A stretch of 64,000 nucleotides of DNA from Bacteroidia bacterium (GTDB taxonomy: Bacteria; Bacteroidota; Bacteroidia; J057): contig JAUIKF010000003.1 of NCBI GenBank assembly GCA_030430575.1, positions 186,001 through 250,000 on the forward strand, given 5' to 3'. Both the position numbers and the translations under genes were made by a program. Shown here in pieces: positions 3,828 to 10,326 of the stretch; position 1 is the stretch's first letter, and every line of letters starts with the position of its first letter. The notes under the pieces are model-generated. The model made no database searches. It was not told where the DNA came from and worked only from the letters and a program-made list of their open reading frames with translations.

Positions 3828-4532
3828 TCACCCCTCCTCCTCTACCAGCATAAATCCCACCCCAAACACATTTTCAATGCGAACATTGGGTTCATCTTTG
3901 AGGTATTTTCGAAGTTTGGCGATAAAGACGTCAAAGCTTCTTCCTAAGAAATAGTCATCTGTTCCCCAGATGCGTTCAAGGGCATCTTGGCGGCGGAGGA
4001 TGTTGTTTTTGTTGAGGCAAAGCAAGCGCAACACTTCGCTTTCGCGTTCAGTGATTCGGCGGGATTTCCCCTTGACCTGCAAGGATTGAGTAGCATAATT
4101 AAACTGCGCATCCCCTATCGTAAATATCTCAATATCAACAGGTTCTGGCTCTGCATCTGATACCCTTCTAAGGATAGCTTGAATACGACACAGCAGCACA
4201 TCTTCGTCAAAAGGTTTGACGATATAGTCATCCGCTCCCAAGCGAAATCCTCGGAGCTTATCTTCTTTCCGGGTACGGGCAGTCAAGAATATGATCGGTA
4301 GGTCCTTGCGGTATTTCCGAATTTGCTCCCCCAAACAAAACCCGTCGATCATGGGCAACATGACATCCAAGAGGCAGAGGTCAAACTTTCCCGCCCGAAA
4401 GGCCCTAAGCCCTTCTTGCCCGTCCTTGCACAAGGTCACGTCATATCCCGCCATGAGCAAAAATTCTTCTAATAAGAACCCCATGCTAGGATCATCCTCA
4501 ACCAGCAAGATATGTGCGCGTTCTGCCATCAT
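3828..4532 (-). CDS. OmpR-family response regulator (RprY-like)
   Basis: 234 residues. The receiver domain spans about 5-125 with the acidic pocket EDD near residue 12, phosphoacceptor Asp56 in LLDVMLP, Thr in LTART and Lys in VKPF. A winged-helix DNA-binding domain occupies about 135-230 (TERESEVLRLLCLNKNNILR, then SFDVFIAKLRKYL). It overlaps the upstream kinase by 4 bp (ATGA), so the pair is translationally coupled. Sequence and arrangement resemble the Bacteroides RprXY pair. Its likely operator is the four-fold 11-bp repeat at 5839-5882, upstream of its own operon and of a divergent Cys-rich secreted protein. The start may be either of two consecutive ATGs. Confidence 0.93.
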   Translation of the reverse strand: MMAERAHILLVEDDPSMGFLLEEFLLMAGYDVTLCKDGQEGLRAFRAGKFDLCLLDVMLPMIDGFCLGEQIRKYRKDLPIIFLTARTRKEDKLRGFRLGADDYIVKPFDEDVLLCRIQAILRRVSDAEPEPVDIEIFTIGDAQFNYATQSLQVKGKSRRITERESEVLRLLCLNKNNILRRQDALERIWGTDDYFLGRSFDVFIAKLRKYLKDEPNVRIENVFGVGFMLVEEEG

Positions 4533-5797
4533 GCAAAAGGAATAAAGAGGGTAAAATGACTGCCTTTTCCAAGTTCACTATGGAGTCGGATATGTCCCCC
4601 ATGTGCTTCTACGATGCTTTTCACATAAGCCAACCCAAGGCCAAAACCCTGATTACCTACCCGATGGGTGGCGCGGTAGTACTTGTCAAAAGCGCTCACT
4701 TGATCTTGAGGACCCATGCCAGGTCCATTGTCTATGAAATGGATTTCCATGCCGTCAGCAAACACTTGGCTGCTTATTTCTACCATAGGAGGGCCTTCAG
4801 TGAATTTGATGGCATTGTCAATCAGGTTGTCAAAAACACGACGCAGGTGAAAGGGGTCTCCAATCACAGTTTGGTTGGTAGTGACAAAAGACGAATGAAA
4901 GGTCCCCCCTTGCTCTGAAATCCTAAGGGCAAATGCTTCCATGGCAGCGTAGAGTAGCTCATGTACGGCTATGGGTTGGAGATTTAACTGAAAATCGCCG
5001 CGCTCAATACTCGCCATTTGAAGCATGCGATCTACTTGCTCTTTGAGTCGTTCATTTTCACTTCGAATTAAGGCCAGGAACTGGTCTTCTTTGGAATGGG
5101 TTTCAGGAGAAAGTTTGTGGTCGAGCAAATGAGACGCAAGGCCGATGTTGGCCAGGGGCGTCCTGAATTCATGCGCCATGTGATTAAAAAAGTCTACGTT
5201 TCGCTCGTGAAGCTGCTTTTGTTTTCTAACGGTATGAATCGTTAGAATAAAACATAATGTCACAAAAATGATCAATATGGTGGAAGATCCCAGCATAAAG
5301 CCCATTTGTCCCAAAATATAGCGTCCTTTTCCTGGGAAAAACAGCTCCAAATCTATGTCTGAATTCGTTGATAAGGGATTAACGGAGCAAGAATACGCGC
5401 AAGGAATTTGAGAAAGTCCTGGCAATAAGACAGGGTTCGAAGGCATCGGTGAAGGGACTTTTAGTTGATAATAAAAGTCTTGTGGGAGGTGATACCGCGC
5501 CAGTGCGGCATGGAGCAATGTATCCAAGCGCTGACGGTCAACCTGCGGGCCAATAGTGGTTCCACATAGCAGACCTCCTCCTGCATTAGCAGGTTCACAG
5601 CTGGGATTTCCCATACAACTGAGGGGATTCTCCTCCAGTTGCCCTACTGCGTAGCATAGCGCAAGGCTCACGCGATGGTCAAACTGGGATGCCCGCAGGG
5701 CATGCGCTTCTGAAATCCACTGGAACTGAAAGATCGTCAAAGCGATCAACGCCAGGGCAGAAAGGATCACGATGCTGAGTACATAATTTCGTTTCAC
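4529..5797 (-). CDS. Sensor histidine kinase with Cys-rich extracytoplasmic domain (RprX-like)
   Basis: 422 residues, GTG start. TM1 is at about 7-27 and TM2 at about 168-190; between them lies a 140-residue sensor domain with Cys at about 48, 61, 67, 78, 133 and 137. The HisKA phosphoacceptor is His209 in NHMAHEFRTPL. HATPase boxes follow: N box DNLIDNAIKF, G1 IDNGPGMG, F box FDKYYR, G2 GFGLGLAYV. The partner regulator overlaps its 3' end by 4 bp. Six cysteines in the sensor suggest redox, disulfide or metal sensing; that is inference. A TACTTTG box sits 4 nt before the GTG. Confidence 0.93.
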   Translation of the reverse strand: MKRNYVLSIVILSALALIALTIFQFQWISEAHALRASQFDHRVSLALCYAVGQLEENPLSCMGNPSCEPANAGGGLLCGTTIGPQVDRQRLDTLLHAALARYHLPQDFYYQLKVPSPMPSNPVLLPGLSQIPCAYSCSVNPLSTNSDIDLELFFPGKGRYILGQMGFMLGSSTILIIFVTLCFILTIHTVRKQKQLHERNVDFFNHMAHEFRTPLANIGLASHLLDHKLSPETHSKEDQFLALIRSENERLKEQVDRMLQMASIERGDFQLNLQPIAVHELLYAAMEAFALRISEQGGTFHSSFVTTNQTVIGDPFHLRRVFDNLIDNAIKFTEGPPMVEISSQVFADGMEIHFIDNGPGMGPQDQVSAFDKYYRATHRVGNQGFGLGLAYVKSIVEAHGGHIRLHSELGKGSHFTLFIPFA

Positions 5798-5801
5798 ATC
5801 T

Positions 5802-5808
5802 CAAAGTA
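5802..5808 (-). promoter_or_regulatory. Possible -7 box of the kinase/regulator operon
   Basis: Minus-strand TACTTTG, one base short of TAnnTTTG, 4 nt before the GTG start. It would give an essentially leaderless mRNA, with the four TAACA repeats lying upstream. Confidence 0.3.
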
Positions 5809-5838
5809 CGCAAAAGGAAGCGATGCTTTCCCATTTTT

Positions 5839-5882
5839 TAACAACTCGTTAACAAGTCAATAACAGCTCACTAACAGCTACT
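5839..5882. promoter_or_regulatory. Four direct repeats TAACArsTC at exact 11-bp period, probable response-regulator operator
   Basis: TAACA begins at 5839, 5850, 5861 and 5872, giving four consecutive 11-bp units: TAACAACTCGT, TAACAAGTCAA, TAACAGCTCAC, TAACAGCTACT. OmpR-family regulators bind direct repeats about one helical turn apart. The array lies between the kinase start (5797, minus) and a TAGATTTG promoter box (5898, plus) of the Cys-rich gene, so it could act on both sides. The binding protein is inferred from adjacency. Confidence 0.65.
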
Positions 5883-5897
5883 TCCCACCTCCCTGTA

Positions 5898-5905
5898 TAG
5901 ATTTG
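5898..5905 (+). promoter_or_regulatory. -7 box of the Cys-rich secreted protein gene
   Basis: TAGATTTG matches TAnnTTTG. The last TAACA repeat ends 15 bp upstream, covering the -33 region, as expected for an activated promoter. The predicted leader to the ATG at 6045 is about 135 nt and contains the octamer-like TCATCTAATCATTTTC repeats. Confidence 0.5.
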
Positions 5906-6044
5906 TATCACAATACTTTCAAGGGATCTTTTATTCAAAATTCATTGATCCTTCATTCAACATTAAAACGCCCTAAAGCCAATCCTTTTATCATTTACTC
6001 ATTTTGTCATCTAATCATTTTCTTAATCATCTAATCATTTTCTC

Positions 6045-6344
6045 ATGAAAAACCTGATTCTTCTCATCGCCTTCAGCATCTGTCTTTCTGTCGCAGGGCT
6101 CGCTTTGCAAAACACCCCTCCTTCCAAAACTGACAGCAAAGCTAAAGTAGAGCAAACTTCCACGACAGCTACTGCTTCTTGCACACAGACACAGGCCAAG
6201 GCTACGTCAAAGGCTTGTTGTGCACCTAGCTCATGCTGCCCTTGGTTGCCTATTTGCAAGCCATCTGACTGCTCTCCAGCAAAAGCTACCTCTTGCAACA
6301 AGGCCACGCAGTCTAGCTGCAAAAGCGGCCCACAGGAGCAATAG
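6045..6344 (+). CDS. Small secreted cysteine-rich protein
   Basis: 99 residues. A signal peptide (about 1-20, LLIAFSICLSVAGLA) precedes a low-complexity Ser/Thr/Lys/Gln segment and then nine Cys in about 47 residues: positions 46, 58, 59, 64, 65, 71, 76, 84 and 92, including two CC pairs (KACCAPSSCCPW). No family is recognised. It is transcribed divergently from the Cys-rich sensor kinase system, behind that system's probable operator, and ends at its own terminator (6373-6409), so it is likely a monocistronic target. Metal binding or thiol buffering outside the inner membrane is plausible but unproven. The minus-strand frame across it is a shadow. Confidence 0.8.
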   Translation: MKNLILLIAFSICLSVAGLALQNTPPSKTDSKAKVEQTSTTATASCTQTQAKATSKACCAPSSCCPWLPICKPSDCSPAKATSCNKATQSSCKSGPQEQ

Positions 6345-6372
6345 CCTCTAAGTCATTGATTATGAACAAATT

Positions 6373-6409
6373 GTAGCGGCGTGCTTTTGCATGTCGCTAC
6401 TGTTTTTTT
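6373..6409 (+). terminator. Rho-independent terminator of the Cys-rich gene
   Basis: GTAGCGGCGTGC, loop TTTT, GCATGTCGCTAC: 12 pairs including two G-U, followed by TGTTTTTTT. It begins 29 bp after the stop codon. Confidence 0.9.
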
Positions 6410-6481: not shown

Positions 6482-7519
6482 ATGCAACTAAAGCCTGCCA
6501 CAAGTTATAAGCTGTCCCTCGTACTGCAATACGCAGTGCTGTTTCAGCTACTAACGATCTTTTTTTATGTAGTATACTTCCTAACAGATCGGCGACATAC
6601 TGTGGGTCTGGAAGATATTGATCTACGCCTATTGCTTGCGGTCTTTCCTGGCGCATTAGTAGGGTTTGCTGATGAATTCATCCTTAGGCGAAAATTTAAG
6701 CGCGACCCCTTTATCCTGGCCCTTTTTTACCGCACCTTTATTAATACCCTAATTCTCGCATTTGCCTTGCTGATTTTAGGGCTTCTTGTGGGCTATAAAT
6801 CATGGACGGGTTTCTTCAAAATATCTTTATTCTATGCCTTACAGATTCTTGTGGCGATTAGTATATTTCAAGTAAGGCGGTACGTTGGAAGAGGGCGAAT
6901 CATTCAATTTCTGACTGGGAAATATATTCACCCTACCTGGGAGAATAACCTTATCATGTTTGTGGACCTCAAGGCCTCCACTACCCTTGCTGACTCCCTT
7001 GACACCAAGATTTATAGTGAATTCATTCGGGACTTCATTTCTGACATTTCTGAGCCTATCTATCTCTACCATGGTCGTATCTACCAATATGTAGGGGATG
7101 AAGTGGTCGTGTATTGGAAATTGAATAAAAATAAGCGCAAGAATACCCGTCCTATTCGGTGCTTTGTTGGAATGATGGACATCATTGACAAACGAAAAGA
7201 CTATTACCTAGAACGGTATGGATTAATTCCAGAATTTAAAGCAGGGATGCATGGCGGTCCGTTGATAGTAGCAGAAGTAGGCGAATTAAAAAAGGAAATT
7301 GCCTTTCATGGGCGCGTCATGAATACTACGGCGCGTATCCAAGAAAAATGCAATGAGTTGAAAACCAATTTTTTAATTTCAGAAAACATCCTTTCTGAAA
7401 CAGAATTAGCCCCAGATTTTGTTCCTTTTTCTCAGGGCAAATTCCTTCTCAAGGGGAAAGTCGAAAAAATTGAACTTTTTACTGTAGAAAAGGCGGACAG
7501 TGTGGGGGAGAAGAAATGA
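6482..7519 (+). CDS. Membrane-bound class III adenylate/guanylate cyclase
   Basis: 345 residues. The N-terminal third has four hydrophobic segments (about 13-34, 48-64, 78-105, 112-130). The catalytic CYCc domain covers about 155-335. Metal-binding aspartates are visible in MFVDLKAST and in YQYVGDEVVVYW; AFHGRVMNTTARIQ corresponds to the region carrying transition-state residues. It probably makes cAMP, but the base-specifying residues cannot be assigned confidently by eye. The gene stands alone between two two-component systems; a 24-bp inverted repeat of 8-bp units follows it. No sensor domain other than the membrane segments is visible. Confidence 0.88.
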   Translation: MQLKPATSYKLSLVLQYAVLFQLLTIFFYVVYFLTDRRHTVGLEDIDLRLLLAVFPGALVGFADEFILRRKFKRDPFILALFYRTFINTLILAFALLILGLLVGYKSWTGFFKISLFYALQILVAISIFQVRRYVGRGRIIQFLTGKYIHPTWENNLIMFVDLKASTTLADSLDTKIYSEFIRDFISDISEPIYLYHGRIYQYVGDEVVVYWKLNKNKRKNTRPIRCFVGMMDIIDKRKDYYLERYGLIPEFKAGMHGGPLIVAEVGELKKEIAFHGRVMNTTARIQEKCNELKTNFLISENILSETELAPDFVPFSQGKFLLKGKVEKIELFTVEKADSVGEKK

Positions 7520-7525
7520 TAATAT

Positions 7526-7602
7526 GATAAAATGAGTAAATGATAAAATTGGGCAGCTTACCATTTCATCATTTCATCATTTCATCATTTACTCATTTTA
7601 TC
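7526..7602. repeat. Inverted repeat built from 8-bp units, likely transcript end
   Basis: The left arm (7526-7549) is made of GATAAAAT-GAGTAAAT-GATAAAAT. The right arm contains five octamers of ATTTCATC type at 7563-7602, and its last 24 bp are complementary to the left arm with one mismatch. The hairpin follows the cyclase gene by 7 bp and could act as terminator or stabiliser. The octamer is related to the unit at 42392-42439. Confidence 0.6.
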
Positions 7603-7622
7603 ATTTTCAATTACTAACTCTG

Positions 7623-7630
7623 TACAGATT
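7623..7630 (+). promoter_or_regulatory. TACAGATT site upstream of the second response regulator
   Basis: A perfect copy of the octamer found twice at 9694-9712; a weaker copy (TACTAACT, 5 of 8) lies exactly 11 bp upstream at 7612. It suggests autoregulation of the two-component operon starting at 7670. TTAATTTG at 7655-7662 is a near -7 box only 7 nt before the ATG. Confidence 0.4.
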
Positions 7631-7669
7631 TTACCATTTTCTTTAGGGAAAATCTTAATTTGCCACTAG

Positions 7670-8347
7670 ATGAAAGTTCTCCTGGTTGAAGATGATCCGG
7701 TATTGGGAAAAAATATCCACCAATACTTGCAAAGCGAAACTTATGTTTGTGAGGTTGCTGATTCTTTCCAAGCTGCTGAAGAAAAAGCGGCCCTCTATTC
7801 CTATGATATAGCCTTGCTCGACCTCACCCTACCAGGGGGAGACGGCCTGGATTTGGTTAAGAAAATACGGCTTGCAACCCCTGAAACAGGCATTATCATC
7901 ATATCAGCACGCAACGCAGTCAATGACCGCGTCACAGGCCTCGAACTCGGCGCAGACGACTACCTTAGCAAACCCTTTCACCTCCCCGAGCTCAACGCTC
8001 GGATCAAGGCACTTGCACGCCGTAGGCTTTACAAAGGCGAAAGCCAATTGACCTTTGCAGAGATCCGGATTTTCCCAGAAAGAAGGAAAGTAATGGTGCA
8101 TGATACCCCCATTAGTTTGAGGAAAAAGGAATACGAGTTGCTGCTTTTTTTTGTGGTAAATCGCGGGAAAGTCTTGTCAAAAGTGGCTATTGCTGAGCAC
8201 CTATGGGGAGATTATATGGACGAGGCAGACTCTTATGATTTTCTCTACAACCACGTCAAAAACCTGCGCAAAAAGATGAAGAAGGCTGGAGCGTTAGATT
8301 ACATCCAAACGATCTATGGATTGGGGTATAAATTTTCTCGTCCATGA
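7670..8347 (+). CDS. OmpR-family response regulator (QseB/CzcR type)
   Basis: 225 residues. Receiver domain about 1-115: acidic pocket VEDD (6-9), phosphoacceptor Asp51 in ALLDLTLPGGDG, Ser/Ala in IISARN, Lys in LSKPFHLPEL. A C-terminal winged-helix domain spans about 125-225 (LRKKEYELLLFFVVNRGKV, YNHVKNLRKKM). The stop codon overlaps the kinase start by 4 bp (ATGA at 8344-8347). Likely targets are its own promoter and that of the PepSY-like lipoprotein at 9781, both of which carry TACAGATT sites. Confidence 0.93.
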   Translation: MKVLLVEDDPVLGKNIHQYLQSETYVCEVADSFQAAEEKAALYSYDIALLDLTLPGGDGLDLVKKIRLATPETGIIIISARNAVNDRVTGLELGADDYLSKPFHLPELNARIKALARRRLYKGESQLTFAEIRIFPERRKVMVHDTPISLRKKEYELLLFFVVNRGKVLSKVAIAEHLWGDYMDEADSYDFLYNHVKNLRKKMKKAGALDYIQTIYGLGYKFSRP

Positions 8348-9624
8348 AACTCATCACCGCCACACTTCGGGCCTATTTGCTGTTCACCTTACTCGCTTTT
8401 GTGGTGGGAGGCGCCATTACGATTGTTTTGTTAAAGGCTTTAGTGGTAGAGGAAATAGATGAAAGCTTATGGAGAGACTTTGAAAAGATCCAGGAAACCA
8501 TTGAAACAGAAGGCGAAATGACGTTTGGTAGCCCTACATGGGAGCGCGAAATACACTTTCAGGCTACTCCCCTCCCCGCTTCTATCAATTGGAAAGATAC
8601 TGTCATCATCGGAGTCGATGATGAGGACGACGAAATGGAGGAAATCCCCTTTCGGCAGCTAACAGTCAATCAAACGATCAATGGCTATGGCACACAAGTA
8701 ACCTTGCGTGCTTCTCTGATAGAAACAGATGACTTGGTCGAAGTAGTCTCTATTTCCTTAATTATTCTCTTCATCATTTTGTTGGCTGGCTTGATTCTCA
8801 TCAATAGGCAAGTACTTCGGAAAATATGGCACCCCTTTTTTCAGCTACTCGAATCCTTTCGCTCTTATCGTGTCACAGACCAGCAGCCCAAGAAGCTTCC
8901 TGAATCCAAGATTTATGAATTTAGCCAGCTCAAAGAAGCTTTTTTATCCCTTACCCAGCAGGCCGAAACAGATTATAACAGCCTCAAAAATTTCACCGAA
9001 AACGCTTCTCATGAAATCCAGACACCGATAGCAGCTGCCAAAACAGCGCTTGACATGCTCTTGCAAAATGAGCATCTGGAAGAAAGCCAGCAAGCCCATC
9101 TACATACATTATATAGTTCCTTGAATCGACTGAGTCGGTTGAATCATGGTTTACTCCTATTAACCAAAATCGAAAACCGGCAATATACGCTTGATGAGGA
9201 AATAGCATTAAATGCGGTACTTCAAAAAAGTGTGGAACATTTTGGGGAAATGGCAGCGCTCAAAGATATGCGGCTTCACTTTCATTCAGAACATCCATTT
9301 TCCATTAAAGGAGCCAAGGCATTACTCCAAATCCTCTGTGACAACCTGCTCAAAAATGCCATTCAACATGGGCATGCAGGTAGCGTTATTTCCATAATAT
9401 CCGATGGTCAGTCTTTTAGCATCTCAAACCCTGGGAATCCTTTCCCGATAGAAAGTAAAAAACTCTTTGAGCGATTTACTAAAGCGAATCCCGCTTCTGG
9501 CTCCTTAGGACTTGGGCTAGCCATTTGTCAGCAGGTCTGTTTACTGCATGGATTATCTTTGACATACACCTATTCAGATGCACATCACCATTTCATGATA
9601 AGAAAGGCATACCCTTCTCTTTGA
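8344..9624 (+). CDS. Sensor histidine kinase, partner of the 7670 regulator
   Basis: 426 residues. TM1 is at about 9-31 and TM2 at about 134-154; the roughly 100-residue extracytoplasmic loop includes a strongly acidic run VDDEDDEMEE (91-100). The HisKA phosphoacceptor is His223 in NASHEIQTPIAAAK. The HATPase region has DNLLKNAIQHG (N box), SNPGNPF as a degenerate G1 box, FERFTKA, and SLGLGLAICQQVC. The HATPase domain is compact, as in QseC/CzcS-type kinases of Bacteroidota. The acidic loop parallels the acidic tail of the neighbouring lipoprotein, hinting at cation or antimicrobial-peptide sensing; this is inference. Confidence 0.92.
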   Translation: MKLITATLRAYLLFTLLAFVVGGAITIVLLKALVVEEIDESLWRDFEKIQETIETEGEMTFGSPTWEREIHFQATPLPASINWKDTVIIGVDDEDDEMEEIPFRQLTVNQTINGYGTQVTLRASLIETDDLVEVVSISLIILFIILLAGLILINRQVLRKIWHPFFQLLESFRSYRVTDQQPKKLPESKIYEFSQLKEAFLSLTQQAETDYNSLKNFTENASHEIQTPIAAAKTALDMLLQNEHLEESQQAHLHTLYSSLNRLSRLNHGLLLLTKIENRQYTLDEEIALNAVLQKSVEHFGEMAALKDMRLHFHSEHPFSIKGAKALLQILCDNLLKNAIQHGHAGSVISIISDGQSFSISNPGNPFPIESKKLFERFTKANPASGSLGLGLAICQQVCLLHGLSLTYTYSDAHHHFMIRKAYPSL

Positions 9625-9693
9625 GCTAATAAATACCTGATTCCCAAATCCCATTCAAAATTCAACATTGAATCATTCAACATTCATTAACAT

Positions 9694-9727
9694 TACAGAT
9701 TGACTACAGATTCATTCATTAACTTTG
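9694..9727 (+). promoter_or_regulatory. Two TACAGATT direct repeats plus -7 box of the PepSY-like lipoprotein
   Basis: TACAGATT occurs at 9694-9701 and 9705-9712, an 11-bp period, followed 7 bp later by TAACTTTG (9720-9727), a full TAnnTTTG match. The repeats occupy the -33 position, typical of an activator-dependent promoter. The same octamer precedes the adjacent response regulator gene. Confidence 0.6.
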
Positions 9728-9780
9728 TACCATGAAAAGAATTTCCCTCCCTTTCACATGCATAGCTACTTCCACACAAA

Positions 9781-10326
9781 ATGAAAACACTTAACACATT
9801 TACCCTTCTCCTCATTCTGTCCTTGGTCATCCTCTTTGCAGGATGTGCCAAGGAGTCAGTAGATTCCGCTGCTGATGCACTGAAGTTGCCTCAACAAGTC
9901 GAAGATGCCTTCAAAGCGGACTTCCCTGACGCCAAAGCCGTCGAATGGCACAAAACAGGGGAATACTTCGCGGCGACTTACGAGGAGAATGACCTAGACC
10001 GGGTTGTTTATTATGATACAAAAGGCCAAGAAATTGCCAGAGAGATGGAACTAAACCCAACGGAATTGATGCCTGCCATTAGTGCCTATATTACCCAAAA
10101 CTACCCCTCCCATACGATCACCGAAGCTGAACTATCCAAAGTCCCTAAAGGCACTTTTTATGAAGTGGAACTCGAAGCAGATGACGAGGAAGTAGAGTTG
10201 ATTTTTGATGAACATGGAGGCTTTATTAAAGTTGAAAGCGAGGACGAAGAGGAAGAAGACGAGGAGGAGGGAGAAAACGACCACGATCATGATGACGATG
10301 ATGGGGAACACGACTATGAAGAATAG
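9781..10326 (+). CDS. PepSY-like lipoprotein with acidic/histidine-rich tail
   Basis: 181 residues. A lipobox (LFAGC, Cys22) ends the signal peptide. Two PepSY-like units follow, about 36-80 (LPQQVEDAFKADFPDAKAVE, then VVYYDTKGQEI) and about 95-150 (ISAYITQNYPSHTITEAELS, then LIFDEHGGFI). The C-terminal 30 residues are almost only Asp, Glu and His. PepSY-like lipoproteins are frequent neighbours of two-component systems in Bacteroidota. Here the promoter carries direct repeats also found before the regulator gene. The tail could bind divalent cations; that is a guess from composition. Confidence 0.85.
   Translation: MKTLNTFTLLLILSLVILFAGCAKESVDSAADALKLPQQVEDAFKADFPDAKAVEWHKTGEYFAATYEENDLDRVVYYDTKGQEIAREMELNPTELMPAISAYITQNYPSHTITEAELSKVPKGTFYEVELEADDEEVELIFDEHGGFIKVESEDEEEEDEEEGENDHDHDDDDGEHDYEE

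Follow-up and report, generated by a model that had tools for sequence, protein, structure and literature searches.

In a 64,000-nucleotide (nt) stretch of a Bacteroidia bacterium genome (lineage J057; GenBank assembly GCA_030430575.1, contig JAUIKF010000003.1, positions 186,001 to 250,000; here called the window), the genes for a response regulator and a sensor histidine kinase stand divergent from a gene for a small, exported, cysteine (Cys)-rich protein. Between them lies an array of four 11-bp (base pair) direct repeats, followed at a fixed distance by a promoter −7 box. This geometry is conserved among genomes, is usually directly divergent from an orthologous kinase, and occurs at a single site in the 8.16-Mb window genome. 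Moreover, the number of Cys residues in the sensor domain of the kinase is associated with whether the protein encoded behind the array, which we call the cargo, is Cys rich. Our best explanation, which we hold with somewhat more than even confidence, is that the unit is a dedicated envelope-stress module with thiol-disulfide or soft-metal sensing and its own Cys-rich buffer. That the array belongs to a candidate promoter regulated by this kinase-regulator pair we consider very probable from the comparative data.

A previous reading of the window (the sequence-only reading) had proposed that a sensor domain with six Cys, a divergent 99-residue secreted protein that has nine Cys beyond its signal peptide, and a row of four TAACA repeats formed one regulatory unit. 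All three parts were confirmed at the places it gave. That they form one unit was also borne out: array and −7 box are conserved at fixed geometry, mostly directly divergent from the orthologous kinase, and the layout is repeated in other genera. Its interpretation as a whole was partly supported. It had named neither the fixed spacing from array to −7 box nor a 12-pair stem after the cargo gene.

The array and its promoter

Within the window, the pattern TAACANNTCNNTAACA at ≤1 mismatch had four matches, three of which belong to this array; 100 shuffles gave 0.28 on average and never as many as four. Three TAACA words spaced 11 bp apart occur nowhere else in the window genome. Scans with the full pattern (≤2 mismatches) and with a three-repeat version (≤1 mismatch) yielded only this site in that genome, where the reversed control of the three-repeat scan likewise gave one match. 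Seven other genomes had one to three three-repeat sites each, for a total, with the window site, of 11 against 2 in the control. Because the sites per genome are few, the regulon is probably very small, and no wider regulon was seen in the window genome in the array, full-pattern, and three-repeat scans. The −7 element has the form TAnnTTTG, which has been described for flavobacteria as their sigma-A −7 box (PMC9723704; this and the other PMC sources are cited from excerpts).

Sixty genomes were scanned with a pattern of two and a half repeats (≤1 mismatch), which gave six places in five genomes, versus one for the reversed control. Two overlapping places in the window genome (G000) and one in its sister species (G001) precede the Cys-rich protein gene, those in G032 and G038 precede the orthologous kinase, and the place in G047 falls at a contig end where these genes are absent. 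Each of the four real cases (G000, G001, G032, and G038) has a TAnnTTTG box 26 bp from its fourth repeat. To avoid circularity, the −7 box was left out of the query when 395 genomes of the class were scanned. The array alone then matched at 18 sites, spread over 16 genomes (one match for the reversed pattern), and these were the same sites found with the −7 box in the query: the spacing was identical in all, the box was exact in 17, and in G068 it had one mismatch. Fifteen of the 18 arrays are directly divergent from the kinase. The whole pattern at ≤2 mismatches gave 37 places in the same genomes, 17 of them exact, against 10 for a reversed control of unspecified mismatch level.

An exact scan of the genomes of 84,980 species found 70 sites, 69 in records labeled as Bacteroidota taxa and one, L122, labeled only "bacterium." The consensus over 71 promoters is TTAACAAGTCATTAACAAGTCAATAACTACTCAATAACAAAAT. 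(Some loci carry two names, drawn from two collections.) Where at least 900 bp of upstream sequence was available, the kinase was directly divergent at 55 of 63 sites, 54 recognized by motif and L140 by inspection. At L139 the kinase is 1.7 kb from the array with another gene between. Seven further unlinked sites were second sites of genomes that also have a linked copy (L115, L117, and L124), the sister species (L176), or unexplained (L126, L149, and L177). In the richest genus the array was present in 15 of 36 genomes, with 17 matches versus 0 for the reversed control. Its recurrence in the class scans and in the 84,980-species scan rules out that the array is a lone curiosity; on this comparative evidence we judge that it is a real promoter element. 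The gene between array and kinase at L139 starts like a PAS-type sensor.

The array might instead serve the kinase-regulator operon through autoregulation, with the Cys-rich protein gene a mere neighbor, and indeed the kinase gene begins some tens of bp away from it, and Porphyromonas gingivalis RprY binds its own promoter (PMC3646045). We find this very improbable, however. The −7 box, at its fixed spacing, faces the cargo in all 18 class arrays. The sister species keeps array and Cys-rich protein gene together, 8.3 kb from the kinase, and therefore the array belongs to the cargo. Finally, kinase-free arrays precede other exported genes, namely those for a DUF4920 lipoprotein (L094/L117), a lipoprotein of unknown kind (L098/L115), and a 63-amino-acid (aa) lipoprotein (L203).

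Cysteines in the sensor and in the cargo

The first gene after the array nearly always starts like that of an exported protein, as judged by eye. We defined a Cys-rich cargo as a protein of under 150 aa with at least 6 Cys after residue 20; such cargos, 76 to 109 aa long, were found at 16 of the 70 exact sites. Other genera repeat the layout with Cys-rich exported proteins that look unrelated. A relative of the window protein (43% identical) was found in only 1 of the 59 other genomes in the 60-genome set, that of sister species G001, whose kinase is 48% identical. G005 belongs to the same family, and there too the kinase gene diverges from one for an exported protein rich in Cys, which has no detected similarity and lies behind a degenerate array. 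The remaining cargos include heme-motif lipoproteins, small lipoproteins ending in Cys, propeller lipoproteins, FKBP, DUF4920, and TonB-C-like proteins. Two types recur: lipoproteins of about 60 to 80 aa ending in ..GC or ..NC (L113, L122, L123, L130, L136, L154, L156, L171, and L203), and lipoproteins of about 130 to 145 aa with a single CxxCH motif (L092, L101, L110, L133, L157, L167, L206 to L208, and L210 to L212). At L177 (Emticicia), a kinase-free array precedes a protein with a weak, below-cutoff thioredoxin match. Many other orthologous pairs have no clear array, for example those beside genes that we take to be DUF1573-like (L050, L053, and L056).

We compared sensor and cargo in 58 systems, 54 from the 70-site scan plus the window, G001, G005, and G189 (L102); the added rows differ in that the cargo of G001 is unlinked, the array of G005 is degenerate, and that of L102 has two mismatches. 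The periplasmic part of the kinase has four to six Cys in the 17 systems with Cys-rich cargo and one to four in the 41 others (Mann-Whitney P = 1.3e-9, kinship ignored). In contrast, the kinase domains are alike, with 28 Cys in 3,998 residues in the Cys-cargo systems versus 75 in 9,215 residues in the others (P = 0.67). In the enlarged set (L139 and L140 added to make 60, short kinases L120 and L161 removed to leave 58, as also used for the trees), at least four periplasmic Cys were present in 18 of 19 Cys-cargo kinases versus 1 of 39 others. Sensor limits were set by motif, and the sensor stretches of L129 and L162 begin too early. At L135 and L136 the second gene was counted as the cargo; their first genes also class as "other." Near-duplicate rows are present, e.g., L125/L159, L144/L164, and L112/L121. 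Six further loci outside the counted set agree, with four and four sensor Cys where the cargo is Cys rich and two, one, one, and one where it is not; three of them (L046, L101, and L104) had been examined earlier, and L209 and L213 are near identical.

Aligned with C78 of the window kinase, a Cys is present in 13 of 14 kinases whose cargo is Cys rich and in 0 of 29 others, while the columns of C61 (14/14 versus 20/29) and C67 (12/14 versus 12/29) are more widespread. The association between sensor Cys and cargo Cys favors a chemistry of thiols shared by the two proteins. Alternatively, the regulation could be the same but the signal unrelated to thiols, i.e., general envelope sensing, with a fast-evolving cargo that is Cys rich by chance in some lineages. 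The diversity of the cargos listed above and the sameness of operator and regulator in most non-Cys systems speak for this possibility, but it would not lead us to expect that cargo Cys is tracked by sensor Cys and not by kinase-domain Cys, or the sharp division at the C78 column. We therefore regard it as unlikely.

Several observations weigh against a thiol-sensing module with its own Cys-rich buffer. Two systems break the association: L140 has a Cys-rich cargo with three sensor Cys, and L134 has another cargo with four. The exact array is uncommon, as shown by its presence in just 16 of the 395 class genomes, and of the 13 genomes in the 60-genome set that belong to the window's family (G000 to G012), only G000 and G001 have it. 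The sequence-only reading had regarded relatives that keep the two-component system without the Cys-rich protein or the repeats as refuting its proposal. In a search for the three-part arrangement among relatives, array and kinase did recur, but 39 of the 58 counted systems drive another exported-looking cargo, so its proposal is in part contradicted. The Cys-rich protein is thus not an obligate part. In the sister species, the Cys-rich protein gene is separated from the two-component genes. Next to the window unit, we identified no gene for metal or redox functions, and a Foldseek search with the predicted sensor fold gave 47 matches, none at E of 0.001 or better.

The phylogeny is also unfavorable. 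A kinase-domain tree needs seven changes of cargo, of which supported branches force one; a kinase-plus-regulator tree needs four, with two forced, its bootstrap being unsettled and several rows lying on long branches. In independent pairs, the sensor trait moves as predicted or does not differ and never moves in reverse, but the pairs are too few for significance; with so few independent switches, 0.05 is out of reach of a sign test. The association could consequently have been inherited, with an old Cys type and a younger lineage each keeping its own cargo without functional coupling. The few changes forced by supported branches fit such a history, as does the position of the window row inside a supported clade of six in the kinase-plus-regulator tree, every member of which has a Cys-rich cargo. 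On the other hand, the best trees need four to seven changes, the sensor trait tracked the cargo in nearly all draws of independent pairs, and a single genus, g37, holds both Cys-rich cargo (L093 and L096) and other cargo (L092 and L097). One or two old origins followed by inheritance may lie behind these systems, but we think it rather doubtful that inheritance without coupling accounts for the association.

Parts of the unit and comparison with known systems

TABLE 1 Features of the regulatory unit, in window coordinates
Feature	Position	Strand	Basis or remark
Response regulator, OmpR/PhoB type, RprY-like	3828..4532	−	Pfam Response_reg 97.9 bits, Trans_reg_C 54.5 bits
Sensor histidine kinase, 422 aa, GTG start	4529..5797	−	Pfam HisKA and HATPase_c above cutoff
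Predicted periplasmic sensor domain, about residues 28-165, between two membrane helices	5303..5716	−	AlphaFold2 model; limits approximate
Cys-bearing loop, residues 48-78 (C48, C61, C67, C78)	5564..5656	−	Alignment columns; model confidence low at 74-81
Putative operator, four 11-bp direct repeats (TAACANSTCNN type)	5839..5882	+	TAACA at 5839, 5850, 5861, 5872
Predicted −7 promoter element, TAGATTTG	5898..5905	+	26 bp (start to start) after fourth repeat
Exported Cys-rich protein (cargo), 99 aa	6045..6344	+	Signal peptide by eye, about residues 1-20
Intrinsic-terminator-like stem and T run	6373..6408	+	Stem 6373-6400, 12 pairs, 7 G-C, loop 4, then TGTTTTTTTA

All four domains of regulator and kinase score above their Pfam cutoffs, which places the pair among OmpR/PhoB two-component systems, and the two genes overlap by 4 bp. 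The DNA-binding stretch of the regulator, YFxGRSxDVFIxKxRKYL, is near identical across the relatives whose rows were displayed. Between its membrane helices the kinase has Cys at residues 48, 61, 67, 78, 133, and 137, whereas C182 falls inside the second helix. An AlphaFold2 model of residues 1 to 216 (mean pLDDT, 82.3) has helices at 3-56, 84-101, and 157-212 and three strands; it puts C61, C67, and C78 in the loop joining the two helices of the sensor, a loop that is itself poorly modeled. In a second structure comparison the best Z was 6.3, to unrelated chains.

The window Cys-rich protein has ten Cys, one of them inside the signal peptide. It matched no Pfam or NCBIfam family above cutoff, and neither the CpxP/Spy nor the metallothionein families of Pfam matched it at E up to 1; both identities were rejected. 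Since a strong terminator-like stem follows its gene, the transcript is likely one gene long; the 800 bp examined hold three terminator-like sites versus 1.0 in shuffles. Being small, exported, and Cys rich, the protein could be taken for a bufferin-type metal-chelating modified peptide, but we exclude this identity as extremely improbable because the MNIO enzyme (PF05114) was found in 0 of 7 genomes searched (control, 2 of 14 named genomes).

The leader of the Cys-rich protein gene (5906 to 6044) has an expected length of about 135 nt, while most relatives have under 70 nt between −7 box and ATG. It holds repeated ATCATTTT-like words, and similar words occur again at about 7520 to 7610. The DNA adjoining the unit (6482 to 10326) encodes a membrane protein that bears a guanylate-cyclase-type domain, another two-component pair, and a PepSY-like protein that is exported. 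Elsewhere in the window genome, locus L059 (contig C24, 3518-3874) encodes a further exported protein rich in Cys, with 6 Cys in 118 aa. Its similarity to the window protein is weak (40%, E = 0.046), and it lacks a full array.

OmpR/PhoB regulators bind 11-bp direct repeats near promoters, as PhoB does at the pho box, but the window array has another sequence, four repeats, and a Bacteroidota −7 box. The ZraSR-ZraP system responds to envelope stress with a periplasmic metal-binding accessory protein; ZraR, however, is an NtrC-type regulator, and the window regulator is of the OmpR type. By score the nearest named family is RprX/RprY of Bacteroides and Porphyromonas, likewise OmpR type and from Bacteroidota. 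Because the regulator scores 263 bits against the NCBIfam RprY cutoff of 370 (equivalog NF051850), we call it RprY-like and do not file it as RprY. The rprX/rprY genes are essential in B. fragilis (PMC4072883). In the excerpts of PMC3646045 and PMC6032018, the action of RprY in responses to stress and sodium is mostly repression. In a term search of the text of these two papers, "consensus," "motif," "direct repeat," and "binding site" were absent. Known heavy-metal sensor pairs were rejected, with scores of 103.2 versus a cutoff of 292.55 bits for TIGR01386 and 135.6 versus 279.2 bits for TIGR01387.

By analogy, the module appears CpxP-like in layout. In CpxRA-CpxP, the two-component genes and the gene for a small periplasmic protein are divergent, the latter being under the control of the regulator (PMC6737893); here an exported-protein gene likewise is divergent and lies behind a predicted operator of the regulator. 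Excess CpxP inhibits CpxA (PMC6737893). CpxP, however, belongs to a large regulon and is a helical, Spy-like chaperone, whereas the window protein is Cys rich, has no Pfam match, and has the one array site in its genome. TAACTGA direct repeats of Beggiatoaceae, Cyanobacteria, and some Bacteroidetes are heptanucleotides near start codons with a proposed posttranscriptional role (PMC4679880). As far as the excerpt goes, both they and the window array are intergenic, TAAC-containing direct repeats, but the 11-bp spacing is found only in the latter.

Proposed mechanism and its meaning

Known OmpR/PhoB regulators that bind as tandem dimers to direct repeats beside a promoter activate it, and the fixed spacing from array to −7 box fits activation of this kind. 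In the mechanism we propose, the kinase would read the thiol-disulfide or soft-metal state of the periplasm via its Cys-bearing loop (C61, C67, C78, and others) and phosphorylate the RprY-like regulator. The phosphorylated regulator would then occupy the four repeats, immediately upstream of the −7 box, in the form of tandem dimers and would recruit RNA polymerase to one promoter, presumably activating it, from which a single exported Cys-rich protein would be expressed before transcription terminates. In the way that CpxP damps CpxA, this protein may buffer the same chemistry and thereby damp the signal, whether it clears the signal itself or makes contact with the sensor. Thiol or metal chemistry is probably the signal; on damping feedback by the Cys-rich protein our judgment is evenly divided.

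A broader and more speculative idea, which we put forward as unlikely but worth stating, is that these systems form a Bacteroidota switch family in which sensor and cargo are exchanged jointly behind a constant operator and regulator. Every cargo would then have its own sensor as a direct partner; within the Cys class, both might share disulfides or a metal cluster, with the cargo reporting its own loading state to the kinase. We found no description of the operator or of the sensor-cargo link in the open-access literature, subscription papers being mostly outside the search.

The analysis yields a sequence-defined operator, four 11-bp repeats at a fixed 26 bp to the −7 box, and what appears to be a single-promoter regulon for an RprY-like system. 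It also leads to the prediction that sensor Cys 61, 67, and 78 are important only where the cargo is Cys rich. Should sensor and cargo prove to be exchanged jointly, these systems would provide a natural series for how kinases gain new signals.

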